From an uncultured Actinomycetes bacterium (lineage in GTDB: Bacteria; Actinomycetota; Actinomycetes; UBA12327): a stretch of DNA of 39,948 bases. How positions within the stretch are numbered: position 1 is the stretch's first letter; each line of letters opens with the position of its first letter. Location of the stretch: positions 1 through 39,948 of the forward strand of contig CAIXNN010000089.1 in the NCBI GenBank assembly GCA_903920865.1, written 5' to 3'. This document shows, piece by piece, positions 6,698 through 22,677 of the stretch. The position numbers were made by a program, and so were the translations under genes. The notes under the pieces were generated by a model. It ran no database searches and had not been told where the DNA came from. It saw only the letters and a program-made list of their open reading frames with translations.

Positions 6698-7135
6698 GTG
6701 TCGTTTATGTTCCTAGGCCAGCACTTTCCCCGCCTTGATGACAAAGGCCGCATGATCCTTCCAGCCAAATTCCGCGATGCACTCGCGCCTGGAGTTGTCC
6801 TGACCAAGGGTCAAGAGGGCTGTTTGTATATCTACCCGCAAGAGCGCTTCAACGCCATGACCGAAGAGCTCAGCAAACTTCCCGTCACCTCAAAGAACGC
6901 CCGCGATTACAACCGTGTGCTGTTCTCCGGTGCATCGGATGAAATTCCCGACAAGCAGGGGCGCATCACGGTGCCTTCGCAATTGCGTGACTACGCGCAC
7001 TTGACCAAAGAACTTGTCGTGATCGGCAATAACACTCATTTGGAAATTTGGGACCTGACTACCTGGAACGAATATTTGACTCAGAAGGAACCTGCGTTCT
7101 CTCAAATTTCAGAAGGAGTACTTCCGCCGACATAA
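6698..7135 (+). CDS. mraZ: Transcriptional regulator / cell division protein MraZ
   Basis: 145 residues from the GTG at 6698, which has GGGGAGG at a good distance (6682-6688). Starts further upstream add unrelated residues. The protein begins MSFMFLGQHFPRLDDKGRMILPAKFRDAL and repeats the fold in DEIPDKQGRITVPSQLRDYA, the two SpoVT/AbrB-like halves with the DKGR and DKQGR signatures. MraZ assembles into a ring and represses the dcw cluster through direct repeats at its own promoter; a matching array lies just upstream. It is the first gene of the cluster, followed by a 170-base gap before rsmH. Confidence 0.96.
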   Translation: MSFMFLGQHFPRLDDKGRMILPAKFRDALAPGVVLTKGQEGCLYIYPQERFNAMTEELSKLPVTSKNARDYNRVLFSGASDEIPDKQGRITVPSQLRDYAHLTKELVVIGNNTHLEIWDLTTWNEYLTQKEPAFSQISEGVLPPT

Positions 7136-7155
7136 ATCCTGTTTTGCGGCCCCCG

Positions 7156-7205
7156 CCCGCTTGCCCTGACGCCACTTCCCCGGCGCCAGGTCCCCACTAA
7201 GCGGG
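7156..7205 (+). other. Strong hairpin in the mraZ-rsmH gap
   Basis: CCTGACGCC (7165-7173) pairs with GGCGCCAGG (7182-7190) with one mismatch, and the outer CCCGCTT (7156-7162) pairs with AAGCGGG (7199-7205). No T-run follows, so it is not a classical terminator. It could stabilise, process or attenuate the transcript between the regulator and the enzymes it controls. Confidence 0.45.
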
Positions 7206-7305
7206 TAGGGACCGGAACACAGGAAAGCAACAGCACGACAGCAACACAGCAGCACCTCACCTGCACTGCGGCAGGGGAGTTCGGGTCGAGCAGCTAGGGG
7301 ATGTC

Positions 7306-17415: not shown

Positions 17416-18525
17416 GTGCCAGCGATTCATGTACTCCTTGCAGGTGGAGGAACCGCAGGACACGTTGAACCTGCACTAGCCACAGCTGATGCCTTAGTGG
17501 AGTTAACTCAAAGCCATGGATTTAACTGCGAAATCACCATGCTGGGTACCGCTGATGGATTAGAGGCACGTCTTGTGCCGCAGCGCGGTTATCACCTGGA
17601 ATACATAGAAAAAGTAAGTCTGCCGCGAAAGCCGAGCCTAGATTTTTTGACCCTTGGACCACGTTTGCGCTCGTCGGTGAAAAAAGTTGAGCAAGTGATT
17701 AGTTCTCGCTCCATTGATGTGGTGGTTGGCTTCGGGGGTTACGTCAGCGTTCCTGCCTACCTTGCAGCACGCCAGGCCAAACTTCCTATCGTCATTCATG
17801 AGGCCAATGTTCATCCTGGCTATGCAAACCGGCTTGGTGCTCGCATCTCAGAGCATGTGGCCACCGGCTTGCCGGGAACAAAACTTGCTCATGCTCACGT
17901 GGTGGGGATGCCGTTGCGCAAAGCCATCAGTGAGCTAAATCGTGATGCGATGCGAGCACAGGCCCGCGAATATTTCGGTCTCGATGATCGACCGGTGATC
18001 TTGGCTTTTGGTGGATCCCTTGGGGCCGCGCGCATCACCTCAGCAATGTTGGGAGCTCAGGGTTCCTACGGGTCGGCCGGAATCCAAGTGTTGCTCTCAG
18101 CTGGGGTTAAGGGTTATGCCCAGGCTCGAGCACAAGCCGACAGCGGCGTGGTCAGCGTCGTTGAGTACATCGATCGGATGGATCTGGCCTATTCGGTGGC
18201 TGACCTAGTGGTGGGCCGCTCAGGGGCTATGACCTGCGCCGAAGTTTCAGCCGTTGGACTGCCGTCGGTTTTGGTACCGCTGCCCATCGGCAATGGCGAA
18301 CAAAAATGGAACGCCGAATCTTTGACCACCGCGGGAGCGGCTCTAGTTATTGATGATGCGAGCTTTACCGCTTCGGCAGTTCGTCAACGTATTGTTCCGT
18401 TAATGAAAGATTCCCAGCGAATTGCAACCATGGGCGCAGCGGCTGCAACGTTAGGTCGAAGGCGCGCTGATCAGGTGTTCGCCCGGTTCATTCTCGATGT
18501 AGTCCTACCGGGAGGTGCGGCGTGA
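17416..18525 (+). CDS. murG: Lipid II synthase: UDP-GlcNAc:undecaprenyl-PP-MurNAc-pentapeptide GlcNAc transferase
   Basis: 369 residues from a GTG at 17416. MurG is a GT-B fold enzyme on the inner membrane face that adds GlcNAc to lipid I. The first Gly-rich loop is LLAGGGTAGHVEPALA near the N-terminus. VVGFGGYVSVPAYLAA and IVIHEANVHPGYANRLGA are the acceptor-side motifs, LAFGGSLGAARI is the second Gly loop, and GRSGAMTCAEVSAVGLPSVLVPLP with GNGEQKWNAESL is the UDP-GlcNAc site. The stop overlaps the murC GTG (GTGA). Confidence 0.97.
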   Translation: MPAIHVLLAGGGTAGHVEPALATADALVELTQSHGFNCEITMLGTADGLEARLVPQRGYHLEYIEKVSLPRKPSLDFLTLGPRLRSSVKKVEQVISSRSIDVVVGFGGYVSVPAYLAARQAKLPIVIHEANVHPGYANRLGARISEHVATGLPGTKLAHAHVVGMPLRKAISELNRDAMRAQAREYFGLDDRPVILAFGGSLGAARITSAMLGAQGSYGSAGIQVLLSAGVKGYAQARAQADSGVVSVVEYIDRMDLAYSVADLVVGRSGAMTCAEVSAVGLPSVLVPLPIGNGEQKWNAESLTTAGAALVIDDASFTASAVRQRIVPLMKDSQRIATMGAAAATLGRRRADQVFARFILDVVLPGGAA

Positions 18526-19904
18526 GGCACGTGCACTTCATCGGAATCGGCGGCGCCGGCATGAGCGGAATTGCCCGCATCATGAGAGCTCGTGGGTTCG
18601 AAGTCAGTGGCAGTGACCTGAAGGATGGCCGGGCTTTGACCTCGCTGCGCGCATTAGGAATTGACGTTTTCATCGGCCATGCATCACAAAATGTTGAGGG
18701 CGCAGATGAGGTCGTCATTTCAAGCGCCATTCGCGCAGACAATGTTGAATGCCAAGCCGCTAAATCAGCGGGTATCCCAGTAATTAAGCGCGCCGAGGCA
18801 CTGGCGCAGTTGTTGCAGGGATCGAACTCGGTTGCTGTTGCCGGCACCCATGGCAAAACCACAACCACGTCCTTACTCACAGTTGCTTTGCAACATCTTG
18901 GGGTTGATCCCTCATTTGCCATCGGTGGTGACCTGAATGAATCGGGCGCCAATGCTCACAATGGAAGCGGCGAACACTTCATCGCTGAGGCAGACGAAAG
19001 CGATGGGTCATTTCTTCTGCTTTCTCCTACGAACGCCATCGTGACCAATATTGAGCTTGATCACCTTGACTTCTATCAATCACAAGAACAGGTTGATCAG
19101 GCATTCCTTGATTTTGCAAAGGCAATTCCATCTGATGGTTTCGCCGTGGTCTGCGCCGATGATGCCGGTGGTCAGCGTCTGATTGACACGGCTAAAACTG
19201 CTGGTGTAAACGTTGTTACCTACGGCCAAAGTCCGGACTGCGATCTGCGGATCTCGGCAGAGATACTTTCGGGTAGAACGTGCAGTTTTGAAGCCAGTTG
19301 GCATGGTATTCGCATTGGCGGGGTGAACTTGCAAATTCCTGGCCACCACAACGTGCTCAACGCAGGTGCAGCCTTGGCCGCTGGCTTGTCTTTGGGCCTT
19401 CCCGCCGCAGGACTGATTGAAGGATTGGGCACCTTTACCGGAACCCGTCGACGGTTTGAGCCAAAGGGTGCGGCCGCTGGGGTCAGCATTTTTGACGACT
19501 ACGCCCATCACCCCACGGAGATCACGGCAACGCTGTTAGCCGCTCGCGATGTGGTCAAATCCGGTCGCCTGGTGGTGGCCTTCCAGCCGCACCGCTATTC
19601 CAGAACAGCGGCGCTGATGGATGAGTTCGGCGCGGCCCTAGCTGTGGCTGATGCACTCGTTGTGATGGAGGTCTATGCCGCCGGTGAGGACCCTATTCCC
19701 GGCGCTGGTGGTTCTGCCGTGGCCGATGCAGCACGCAAACACGGCGCTGCGGATGTGAACTTCGTTGGATCGTGGAGTGCGGTTGCGCCAACACTGGTTG
19801 ACCTAGTCCAGCCGGGCGATGTCGTGATGACCTTAGGTGCGGGGGACATCACCTTGATCGGGCCAGAGGTTCTTGCCGGCCTAACAGCTCGAGCCAGCCA
19901 GTGA
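18522..19904 (+). CDS. murC: UDP-N-acetylmuramate:L-alanine ligase
   Basis: 460 residues from a GTG overlapping the murG stop. MurC adds the first residue, L-Ala, to UDP-MurNAc. HFIGIGGAGMSGIARIM at the N-terminus binds the uridine nucleotide and VAGTHGKTTTTSLL (about 106-119) binds ATP. EADESDGSFL, NIELDHLDFY and FDDYAHHPTEI with FQPHRYSRTAALMDEFG complete the set. Its position late in the cluster, after murG and before ftsQ, is the normal actinobacterial order. The stop overlaps the ftsQ GTG. Confidence 0.97.
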   Translation: MRHVHFIGIGGAGMSGIARIMRARGFEVSGSDLKDGRALTSLRALGIDVFIGHASQNVEGADEVVISSAIRADNVECQAAKSAGIPVIKRAEALAQLLQGSNSVAVAGTHGKTTTTSLLTVALQHLGVDPSFAIGGDLNESGANAHNGSGEHFIAEADESDGSFLLLSPTNAIVTNIELDHLDFYQSQEQVDQAFLDFAKAIPSDGFAVVCADDAGGQRLIDTAKTAGVNVVTYGQSPDCDLRISAEILSGRTCSFEASWHGIRIGGVNLQIPGHHNVLNAGAALAAGLSLGLPAAGLIEGLGTFTGTRRRFEPKGAAAGVSIFDDYAHHPTEITATLLAARDVVKSGRLVVAFQPHRYSRTAALMDEFGAALAVADALVVMEVYAAGEDPIPGAGGSAVADAARKHGAADVNFVGSWSAVAPTLVDLVQPGDVVMTLGAGDITLIGPEVLAGLTARASQ

Positions 19905-20587
19905 AGAAGACAACAGTTGCTGGCTTGATTCTGGCCGGACTGGGCGGATTGGGCATATTTCTTGTCATTAACTTCACCGGGGTATTCAGCGTTTCTGATG
20001 TAAGGGTTTCAGGGACAAACTCAGTGACCGCGCAACGCATTAGGGACGTGGCCGATGTTCGGCTTGGGCAGACCCTGGCCCGCGTTGATGTTGTGGCCAT
20101 TACCTCAGCGATCAATGAATCAGTTCCTGACGTGACCGCAGTGTCAGTTCAGCGTCGGTGGCCCCACACCGTGCAGATCAGTGTTCGTGATCGAACAGTG
20201 GCAGCCAATGTCACCACCGGTGGAAAGATTCGCCGGGCCGATGCTGATGGAGTGATTTTCGGTTCGGTCAATCGCCCCAAGAAGGGGGCCACGAAGGTTG
20301 TCCTGATCCCATCTTTTGACGCGCAGAGCACATCCGCGCGCCAGAGCGCCATCGTGGATTGCCTCACCGTGTATCGAGCGCTGCCCTCCAAGGTGCGGAA
20401 AGCCATTTCGCGAGTGGAATATCGCAGCGGGGAGAACATCACACTGGTACTGACCTCGGGTAAAACCATTCGATGGGGCAGTGCAGTCGATTCGGCTCGC
20501 AAGGCACAAGTTTTGTCCGTCTTGCTCGGGCGTCGAGCAAGTGTTTATGACGTGAGTTCACCCGATCTTCCAGTGACTAAGGGGTAG
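19901..20587 (+). CDS. ftsQ: Cell division protein FtsQ
   Basis: 228 residues. A very short cytoplasmic N-terminus (MKKTT) is followed by one membrane segment (about 6-26) and a POTRA domain (about 29-98; FSVSDVRVSGTNSVTAQRIRDVA split at its strands, ending VQRRWPHTVQISVRDR). The FtsQ/DivIB beta domain follows, with GVIFG, VEYRSGENITLVLTSGKTIRWG and KAQVLSVLL. FtsQ links early and late division proteins through FtsL and DivIC. The GTG start overlaps murC. In most actinobacteria ftsZ follows directly, but here a hydrolase gene begins four bases after the stop. Confidence 0.95.
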   Translation: MKKTTVAGLILAGLGGLGIFLVINFTGVFSVSDVRVSGTNSVTAQRIRDVADVRLGQTLARVDVVAITSAINESVPDVTAVSVQRRWPHTVQISVRDRTVAANVTTGGKIRRADADGVIFGSVNRPKKGATKVVLIPSFDAQSTSARQSAIVDCLTVYRALPSKVRKAISRVEYRSGENITLVLTSGKTIRWGSAVDSARKAQVLSVLLGRRASVYDVSSPDLPVTKG

Positions 20588-20591
20588 TTGC

Positions 20592-21374
20592 GTGCAAACA
20601 TCTGAGGTACTTAATTTCACCGCGCGCAATGCCGCTCTTGGTCTGAACCTTCCCGATGTTCCCATCACGATTGATTCACCCCAAGAACCCATTGGTTGTG
20701 TTGTGCTCTTCCACGGCTTTGGCCGCAAACCCGATGCGTTAGATGAGCTCACGACGACGCTGATTGATGCGGGCATGTGGGTGGTGCGTCCGTACTTGAA
20801 GTCACGGGCTAAGGGCGGTCTCAATGACCGCGACCTGATGCGCGCCGTAGGCGATGAAGTACAGGGCCTGAAACCAGCTGATCTCCCTGTAGTGGTCATG
20901 GGGCATTCAGCTGGGGGAGCTGTGGCGATGGTGGTGGCAAAAGAAATGATTGAGCGAGCCCAGCCGGTGGTAGGAGTTTTGCTGATAGATGCCAACGGAA
21001 GTATTGAAAACATCATGCAACCAGGATTTGATGCACTCAGTGAACGCGGAATTCCGGTACGTACGGTGGCTGCCTCAGCTGGTCGCTGCAATGGAAAAGC
21101 AGCCACTGCTCGGTGGTTGATGGAGCAGTCTCAACCCTTCGCCGGCATTCAATTGACCACCGGGCGACACTGTGATGTGGAGGGGACGAAATCAGATCTG
21201 ACCTGTCGACTGCTGTGTGGTGGAGTTCCGGATCCAACGAATGCCGCCATCATTCGCACCCTTGCAGTGGGCTGGTCTCGTGCGTGGCTCACGCGTAAGT
21301 CTGAACCTGAGATTGAACCTGGCGGGAAGCGTTTGAGCATCTGGGAAGACTTGAGGGTTGTGAAAGTTTTATAG
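20592..21374 (+). CDS. Alpha/beta hydrolase inserted between ftsQ and ftsZ
   Basis: 260 residues from a GTG at 20592, with AAGGGG about eight bases upstream. CVVLFHGFGRKPDAL (36-50) contains the oxyanion strand and HGFG, and VVVMGHSAGGAVAM (100-113) is the nucleophile elbow with S106. The candidate catalytic His is H193 in TTGRHCDVEGTKSD; the acidic residue is less clear (D133 in LLIDANGS is one candidate). HCDVEG followed by CRLLCGG resembles the chlorophyllase/PET-hydrolase-like branch of the superfamily, which acts on esters. No signal peptide or membrane segment is visible, so it is probably cytoplasmic. It is tightly linked to ftsQ and likely co-transcribed with murC-ftsQ. A role in cell-wall or lipid metabolism is inference only; the substrate is unknown. 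Confidence 0.85.
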   Translation: MQTSEVLNFTARNAALGLNLPDVPITIDSPQEPIGCVVLFHGFGRKPDALDELTTTLIDAGMWVVRPYLKSRAKGGLNDRDLMRAVGDEVQGLKPADLPVVVMGHSAGGAVAMVVAKEMIERAQPVVGVLLIDANGSIENIMQPGFDALSERGIPVRTVAASAGRCNGKAATARWLMEQSQPFAGIQLTTGRHCDVEGTKSDLTCRLLCGGVPDPTNAAIIRTLAVGWSRAWLTRKSEPEIEPGGKRLSIWEDLRVVKVL

Positions 21375-21391
21375 TTATTTTTCAGGTCGGG

Positions 21392-21421
21392 TTGAACCTG
21401 CTTATGCCTTACGTCTAAAGT
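21392..21421 (+). promoter_or_regulatory. Putative ftsZ promoter
   Basis: TTGAAC (21392-21397), an 18-base spacer and TAAAGT (21416-21421) lie in the 151-base gap before ftsZ. The -10 element is the same as in the mraZ promoter. A start near 21428 gives a leader of about 98 bases. A 5-bp hairpin CAGGT/ACCTG (21383-21400) overlaps the -35. Confidence 0.45.
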
Positions 21422-21449
21422 CCGTGCACGTCGAGTTGACGTAACTTTG

Positions 21450-21466
21450 ACCCTTAACTTGAGGGT
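21450..21466 (+). promoter_or_regulatory. Near-perfect palindrome in the ftsZ leader
   Basis: ACCCTTAA-C-TTGAGGGT is an inverted repeat centred on 21458 with a single G-T position. It could be an operator. TTGACC at 21447 and TTGACG at 21436 beside it could be -35 elements of a second promoter, but no well-spaced -10 was found. Confidence 0.35.
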
Positions 21467-21525
21467 TAGGGTCCGTTTGTATCTGCCCTCGAAACATGAT
21501 CGAGACTTCACGAAAGGCGTGCGCT

Positions 21526-22677
21526 GTGGCAGCTCCGCAGAATTACATGGCTCTTATCAAGGTAGTTGGAATTGGTGGTGGTGGTGTTAACGCCATCAAC
21601 CGCATGATCGATGTCGGTCTTAAGGGCGTTGAGTTCATCGCTATTAACACCGACGCACAAGCTCTGTTGATGAGTGATGCTGATGTCAAGCTCGACATCG
21701 GTCGCGACATCACCAAGGGTCTTGGTGCTGGCGCCGATCCTGAAGTTGGTCGCAAGGCCGCTGAAGAAGCACGCGAAGAAATCGAAGAAGTACTCAAGGG
21801 TGCTGACATGGTCTTCGTTACCGCTGGTGAAGGTGGCGGAACCGGAACTGGTGGAGCACCCGTTGTGGCCTCCATCGCGCGTAGCCTTGGTGCACTGACC
21901 GTCGGTGTTGTCACTCGTCCGTTCACCTTTGAAGGTCGTCGTCGTCAAGTTCACGCTGAGACCGGTGTTGAGGAATTGCGCGACGAAGTTGACACCTTGA
22001 TCGTTATTCCAAACGACCGCTTGCTGCACATCAGCAACCGCGACATTTCGCTGGTTGAAGCATTCAAAGAGGCAGACAATGTTTTGCTCTCCGGCGTTCA
22101 GGGCATCACCGACCTGATTACCACTCCTGGCCTGATCAACCTTGACTTCGCTGACGTTAAGTCCGTGATGTTGGGCGCTGGCTCAGCCTTGATGGGTATC
22201 GGATCGGCTCGCGGACAAAACCGCGCCAGCGAAGCTGCTGAAGCTGCTATCTCGAACCCCTTGTTGGAAGCTTCCATCGAGGGCGCCCGTGGCGTGCTTC
22301 TTTCCTTCTCTGGTGGCTCCGATGTCGGAATGCATGAAATCCGTGAAGCCGCTGAACTGGTTCGCGAAGCAGCCCACAACGACGCCAACATCATCGTCGG
22401 CGCAGTCATTGATGACTCGCTGGGTGATGAGGTTCGCGTGACCGTTATCGCTGCTGGATTCGATGGTGGACGTCCGTTGCCTCGGACCACTCCGGTTGCC
22501 CGCACTGCCCGCACTTCAGCAGCGCCGGCTACCAGTTCAACTGGTGTCACCTACGACGATGCTCCTAACACATCTTCGGACTCAGGTTCATCATCAGAAT
22601 CGTTGCCGCCCAAGAAGGTCGTGGCCTTTGACGACTTTGACGACGACCTGGACATTCCAGACTGGTTGAAGTCCTAA
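21526..22677 (+). CDS. ftsZ: Cell division GTPase FtsZ
   Basis: 383 residues from the GTG at 21526, chosen because it gives [20 protein letters not shown], the usual actinobacterial N-terminus, and AAAGG lies eight bases upstream; an ATG at 21496 would add ten unrelated residues. FtsZ polymerises with GTP into the Z ring that positions septal wall synthesis. The tubulin signature GGGTGTG is at 103-109, NTDAQAL at 41-47, and the synergy loop is in the second domain. A Ser/Thr/Ala/Pro linker (about 325-365) leads to the conserved tail [11 protein letters not shown] (373-383), which binds SepF and other partners. No ftsA is present; SepF (24174) is the likely membrane anchor. Confidence 0.98.

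Follow-up and report, generated by a model that had tools for sequence, protein, structure and literature searches.

Why does a gene for an alpha/beta hydrolase stand inside the dcw cluster of an uncultured actinomycete, between ftsQ and ftsZ? In sampled Actinomycetes the common order is ftsQ followed by ftsZ, and in the 39,948-nucleotide stretch of DNA analysed here (contig CAIXNN010000089.1, hereafter the window) the hydrolase separates the two. An enzyme fixed at this junction in one order, with a relative at the junction in a second, offers a natural test of whether genes next to division genes share in that process or are only expressed at a convenient place. The hydrolase gene proves genuine, and it gives the division cluster of a little-known actinobacterial order an unusual make-up. 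The most likely reading, to which we give a probability of roughly 60%, is a conserved cytosolic esterase or thioesterase that rides as a passenger at a tolerant spot and is co-expressed with murC-ftsQ.

Position and conservation of the hydrolase gene

The initial annotation described a 260-residue hydrolase four bases after ftsQ and ahead of ftsZ, and its open reading frame, spacing and domain matches were all verified. The gene runs from a GTG start over positions 20592–21374 of the forward strand, which also carries its neighbours: murC (18522–19904; TIGR01082, 502 bits), which overlaps the start of ftsQ by 4 nt, and its immediate upstream partner ftsQ (19901–20587, 228 aa; POTRA_1 1.2e-12, FtsQ_DivIB_C 2.6e-8). 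The ftsQ stop at 20587 and the hydrolase start at 20592 leave a gap of exactly 4 nt. Direct reading of the sequence places a probable Shine–Dalgarno element, AAGGGG, on the forward strand within the last ftsQ codons (20579–20584), seven nt from the hydrolase start codon, making the good ribosome site proposed earlier plausible. Downstream, the forward-strand gene ftsZ (21526–22677, 383 aa; TIGR00065, 420 bits) is read from GTG 21526 (MAAPQNY..., matching the open reading frames of relatives) in preference to the mechanically called ATG 21496, so that the gap between hydrolase and ftsZ is 151 nt. The other dcw-side neighbours are PgeF, a YggS-like protein and SepF. An Rfam mraW RNA (RF01746, 56.5 bits) marks the start of the dcw cluster at 7131–7234 of the forward strand.

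The order murC-ftsQ-hydrolase-ftsZ recurs in three relatives of the same genus and in one of a second genus. Profile searches of the six genomes that represent the window's order in our collection placed the hydrolase behind ftsQ in all six, with ftsZ next in five; in the sixth a contig edge falls inside the hydrolase, whose first 27 residues lie directly behind ftsQ. Close relatives were confined to the same genus and family in a search of 98 genomes, and orthologues at the same position in other species are 60, 59, 58 and 40% identical to the window protein. The tight coupling to ftsQ is likewise preserved, as a gap of 4–5 nt across the genus and, in the second genus, as an ATGA overlap. Comparison of the three closest relatives gives a dN/dS of 0.12–0.19 for the hydrolase, 0.13–0.16 for FtsQ and 0.04–0.13 for FtsZ; values between the window and its relatives were set aside because synonymous changes in the hydrolase and FtsQ are near saturation. 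Identity to same-genus relatives is 59–60% for the hydrolase versus 48–51% for FtsQ. Because orthologues occupy the same place and are under purifying selection, the gene is not there by chance, and confinement to a single assembly, which the initial annotation had named as fatal to its proposal, does not apply.

All close relatives with known titles are metagenome assemblies, and one copy in the second order is apparently frameshifted, as might be expected of an assembly or binning artefact or of a decaying gene. Such an origin is nevertheless highly improbable here, given the same gene order in five further assemblies, dN/dS well below 1 and intact frames in four complete relatives. The named records among these relatives are actinobacterium acAMD-2, a Lake Pavin MAG, UBA12327 and a MAG labelled Bifidobacterium breve. 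The last (CAMCVY010000044.1) contains a dcw cluster of the window's order with an FtsZ 91% identical to that of the window; its label looks wrong, as its content does not fit.

Putative active site, predicted fold and a probable ftsZ promoter

The GHSAGG motif spans residues 104–109 and carries the nucleophile S106, and the HCDVEG/CRLLCGG pattern noted earlier corresponds to the region of the catalytic histidine (H193) and conserved cysteines. Alignment conservation points to a triad of S106, D133 and H193, encoded on the forward strand at 20907–20909, 20988–20990 and 21168–21170. These residues and GHSAG are invariant in 23 sequences that cover the family and secreted hydrolases related to it, as are H41-G42-F43, R45, N167, D195, E197 and G198. 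The triad, GHSAG, C166-N167 and C209-G210 are also invariant across 17 aligned members, 16 of which lie beside ftsZ (the exception being an inverted copy from the genome G426), and the dcw members further share H41-G42-F43, R45, D195 and E197. Orthologues have thus kept the catalytic residues whose loss would have counted against the initial proposal. All dcw members carry C166 and C209; C166 is missing from most secreted relatives, in which C194 and C205 are kept.

As judged from the alignment, the conserved acid and histidine appear in the Ser-Asp-His order of alpha/beta hydrolases, and the window protein matches Pfam Abhydrolase_6 (4.5e-8), Thioesterase (3.4e-7) and Hydrolase_4 above cut-off; matches to named NCBIfam families were all sub-threshold. 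The AlphaFold model (mean pLDDT 90, pTM 0.90) sets GHSAGG between a strand (100–105) and a helix (108–121), with S106 at the strand–helix turn, as in the G-x-S-x-G nucleophile elbow that follows strand 5 in alpha/beta hydrolases. In the predicted structure, suggested earlier as a route to the acid residue, the candidate acid, the invariant D133, lies right after the next strand beyond S106, with H193 after a later strand. Foldseek returned 1103 PDB matches at E<=0.001, and with few exceptions the 50 listed are esterases or serine hydrolases of other kinds, so that model and matches together give a canonical alpha/beta hydrolase fold. The protein carries no export signal by hydrophobicity: its maximum KD15 at the N-terminus is 0.89, against 2.65 for FtsQ and 1.9–2.4 for four secreted relatives. 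Hydrophobicity profiles of the window protein and nine dcw relatives contain no hydrophobic N-terminal stretch, and that of the window protein shows neither a membrane segment nor the signal peptide expected of a secreted enzyme.

The 151-nt gap ahead of ftsZ contains a stretch conserved across the genus. Within the window, a candidate FtsR-type site, ACCCTTAACTTGAGGGTTAGGGT, lies on the forward strand at 21450–21472, 53 nt before the ftsZ start, and is identical in three same-genus relatives. For comparison, the published FtsR site of Corynebacterium glutamicum ftsZ is AACCCTAAAGTAAAGGTTGAGGGTA (PMC6683498). The pattern of bases common to both, ACCCTNAANNNNAGGNTNAGGGT, occurs in the window without mismatch only at 21450–21472 and has 0 matches in shuffles, a count that overstates the surprise because the pattern was written after both sites had been seen. 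Many other actinobacterial ftsZ genes also have the pattern, with 0–3 mismatches, at most 170 nt away. An FtsR equivalog (NF050798, 228 bits versus a cut-off of 150; G000:C79) is present in the genome of the window, in a cluster ordered gcvH - FHA protein - ftsR - BFN - merR, in which gcvH and the FHA protein were assigned by reading and not by model. The site ahead of ftsZ, together with the FtsR gene in the genome, makes it probable that ftsZ is transcribed from an FtsR-type promoter of its own, beyond the hydrolase, and would be under FtsR control; the hydrolase would then belong to the murC-ftsQ side. No consensus sigma-70 promoter was found in a scan of 19800–21700. We also considered a known RNA element upstream of ftsZ and rejected it, as Rfam gave no match there and what is conserved resembles an FtsR site.

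Related hydrolases at the junction in a second order

The hydrolase is not a core dcw gene across Actinomycetes. Thirty FtsZ loci were read and FtsQ was recognised at 24, of which 19 lie outside the window's family; none of these 19 has the hydrolase in the ftsQ-ftsZ gap. In the class-wide sample of 395 genomes, a single genome outside the window's family (G343) has a hydrolase beside ftsZ among the loci read, likewise between ftsQ and ftsZ. Within the order of G343, 69 of the 166 genomes searched have some hydrolase match, and in 14 (G343, G409, G419–G425 and G427–G431) the gene lies beside ftsZ in the same direction, encoding proteins about 19–28% identical to the window protein. Seven of the 14 have ftsQ directly before the hydrolase, and six have a divergent ABC transporter, made up of FtsX-like permeases and an ATPase, upstream of it, with ftsQ seen beyond the transporter in G422 and G429 and only the permease part visible, at a contig edge, in G425 and G430; in the remaining genome (G428) the contig ends upstream of the hydrolase. 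The frame beside ftsZ in G431 seems frameshifted in its last third, through decay or sequence error.

Arrangements at this junction vary among genomes of the second order. G426 has the hydrolase inverted between transporter and ftsZ, G247 has the transporter without the hydrolase, G229 has a MIP-phosphatase fusion gene (MIP channel plus low-molecular-weight phosphatase domain) in its place, and in G194 ftsQ precedes ftsZ with no hydrolase in the gap. Other genera of the carrier family have a homologue elsewhere, with ftsQ directly before ftsZ wherever FtsQ was recognised. With a divergent ABC transporter, the MIP-phosphatase fusion and the hydrolase among its inserts, the junction acts as a hot spot for insertions in this order. 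As inserts vary and the hydrolase is inverted or missing, the second-order junction tolerates insertions and the hydrolase is not fixed there; ftsZ can evidently retain an FtsR-type site while other genes gather just upstream.

The hydrolase and FtsZ trees were compared, as proposed in the initial annotation. Five proteins of the window's order form one group in the hydrolase tree and 13 second-order proteins another, and the two are not joined; the carrier groups are also separate in the FtsZ tree, which was built by a quick method and has many weak forks. Forcing both dcw groups of hydrolases into a single clade gave p-AU 0.095, which neither rejects nor supports it. The family may have reached the junction twice, or once long ago with later losses, or by transfer. 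The junction upstream of an FtsR-type promoter might simply be a hot spot that harmlessly accepts genes, at which hydrolases arrived at least twice by chance, as the transporter and MIP-phosphatase genes at the same place and the unjoined groups in both trees would suggest. We consider this unlikely, since no arrival other than this hydrolase family occupies the junction in two orders, and none of the six genomes of the window's order lacks it there.

Recurrence in two orders could instead mark a dedicated envelope or division enzyme, which would remove or transfer acyl groups on lipid carriers, precursors or membrane lipids at septation and would fit co-expression with murC-ftsQ. The conserved position in the window's order, the close link with ftsQ, purifying selection as strong as that on FtsQ and the relatives beside ftsZ in the second order, even where a transporter occupies the ftsQ side, are consistent with such a role. 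We nevertheless doubt it to much the same degree as chance arrival: the hydrolase has no signal peptide or membrane anchor, the gene is missing from the ftsQ-ftsZ gap in most sampled Actinomycetes, close relatives of carriers have it inverted or missing, and homologues elsewhere adjoin unrelated metabolic genes. Neighbours of these non-dcw homologues include TerC, a metallo-beta-lactamase fold protein, LDH-like, GFO/IDH/MocA and PhzF-like proteins, SIS, LacI, a secretory lipase, a rhodanese and a PLP enzyme, and no neighbour is common to all of them. Several genomes of one family (f4) have one to six copies of a distant homologue, which sit within open frames of great length (about 500 to 3,300 codons), some of them close together. 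A viral origin of the hydrolase was considered and set aside, as no relative was found in a viral contig collection.

A probable cytosolic passenger and its known counterparts

We favour a conserved passenger gene. The product would be an intact serine hydrolase of the cytosol, whose gene is fixed right after ftsQ and before the probable FtsR-type promoter of ftsZ. It would have the chemistry of a carboxylesterase or thioesterase, a chlorophyllase-like fold and the putative triad S106-D133-H193. The spacing suggests that it is co-transcribed with ftsQ and translated in step with it from the murC-ftsQ side of the operon, and we propose that its level for that reason follows wall-precursor and divisome synthesis, while ftsZ would additionally be transcribed from its own promoter. 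Its likeliest job would be to hydrolyse a small acyl ester or thioester in the cytoplasm. The enzyme would then be tied to division through co-expression and a site that tolerates insertions, without belonging to the divisome, and would have no division role.

Two observations sit uneasily with this passenger reading: recurrence at the same junction in two orders is unexpected for a pure passenger, and six genomes keep the hydrolase beside ftsZ with a transporter on the ftsQ side. That every member of the window's order has it in place could also indicate a functional link. One such link, which we regard as a still longer shot than the dedicated enzyme, is a cytosolic acyl-ester hydrolase recruited to the junction for co-expression in both orders, where it would assist septal wall synthesis as an accessory specific to these lineages; its substrate would be a lipid-linked precursor or a divisome component that carries an acyl group. 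The originally suggested action during division, with wall polymers, lipid carriers or lipids of the envelope as targets, finds no support: the protein lacks a signal peptide and membrane segment; the probable FtsR-type ftsZ promoter, the unrelated genes in the second-order gap and the second-order hydrolases that are inverted, absent or encoded elsewhere weaken it further. The passenger gene put forward earlier as the null hypothesis stays the more likely account of function, although lasting conservation at a favoured site goes beyond a random insertion.

Known hydrolases resemble the window protein in part. Secreted hydrolases of Actinoplanes, Dactylosporangium, Streptomyces and Yinghuangia are 25–32% identical to it and share the G-H-S-A-G, L-L/I-D and G-x-H-x-D-x-E-G motifs, but unlike it they have signal peptides (by eye); no ftsZ or ftsQ lies beside them at the loci fetched, and the one tested matched no NCBIfam model. 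Polyester hydrolases (PETases and cutinases) reach Foldseek TM-scores of about 0.54–0.64 among the listed matches. The acid residue of these enzymes normally follows strand 7, whereas the invariant Asp of the window protein follows strand 6 in the model, and the window protein is not secreted. The best single-sequence PDB match is a polyketide synthase thioesterase (erythronolide synthase TE; 5d3k, 1kez), covering only the 41 residues 95–135 that form the nucleophile elbow and Asp-bearing strand; Thioesterase PF00975 scores 31.2 bits against a cut-off of 26.4, aligned over residues 83–135 only. The genes read around the hydrolase are dcw genes and offer no carrier-protein context for a PKS/NRPS-type thioesterase. 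With a partial-length match and no carrier protein nearby, we do not use PKS thioesterase as a name for the enzyme.

The best query TM-score among the 50 listed Foldseek matches belongs to wheat chlorophyllase (8fjd, TM 0.67/0.65), at about 18% identity between the plant and window proteins. The residue order is the same, and Ser and Asp are 27 residues apart in the window protein versus 29 in plant chlorophyllases with mutated triads (Ser162/Asp191 and Ser141/Asp170; Chenopodium and Brassica enzymes), whereas the cyanobacterial enzyme has a spacing of 67 (PMC7802212). Pfam Chlorophyllase (PF07224) weakly matches 15 of the 23 rows of our alignment A2 (best E 0.00015) but not the window protein at E<=0.1, and we do not adopt that name either. 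At the level of the cluster, the closest parallel is the dcw region of Corynebacterium glutamicum as described in PMC6683498, where the stretch from ftsQ to ftsZ is an intergenic region. Both loci place ftsQ before ftsZ, have an FtsR-type site ahead of ftsZ and belong to genomes that encode FtsR; what sets the window apart is the additional hydrolase gene that stands after ftsQ and before this site.
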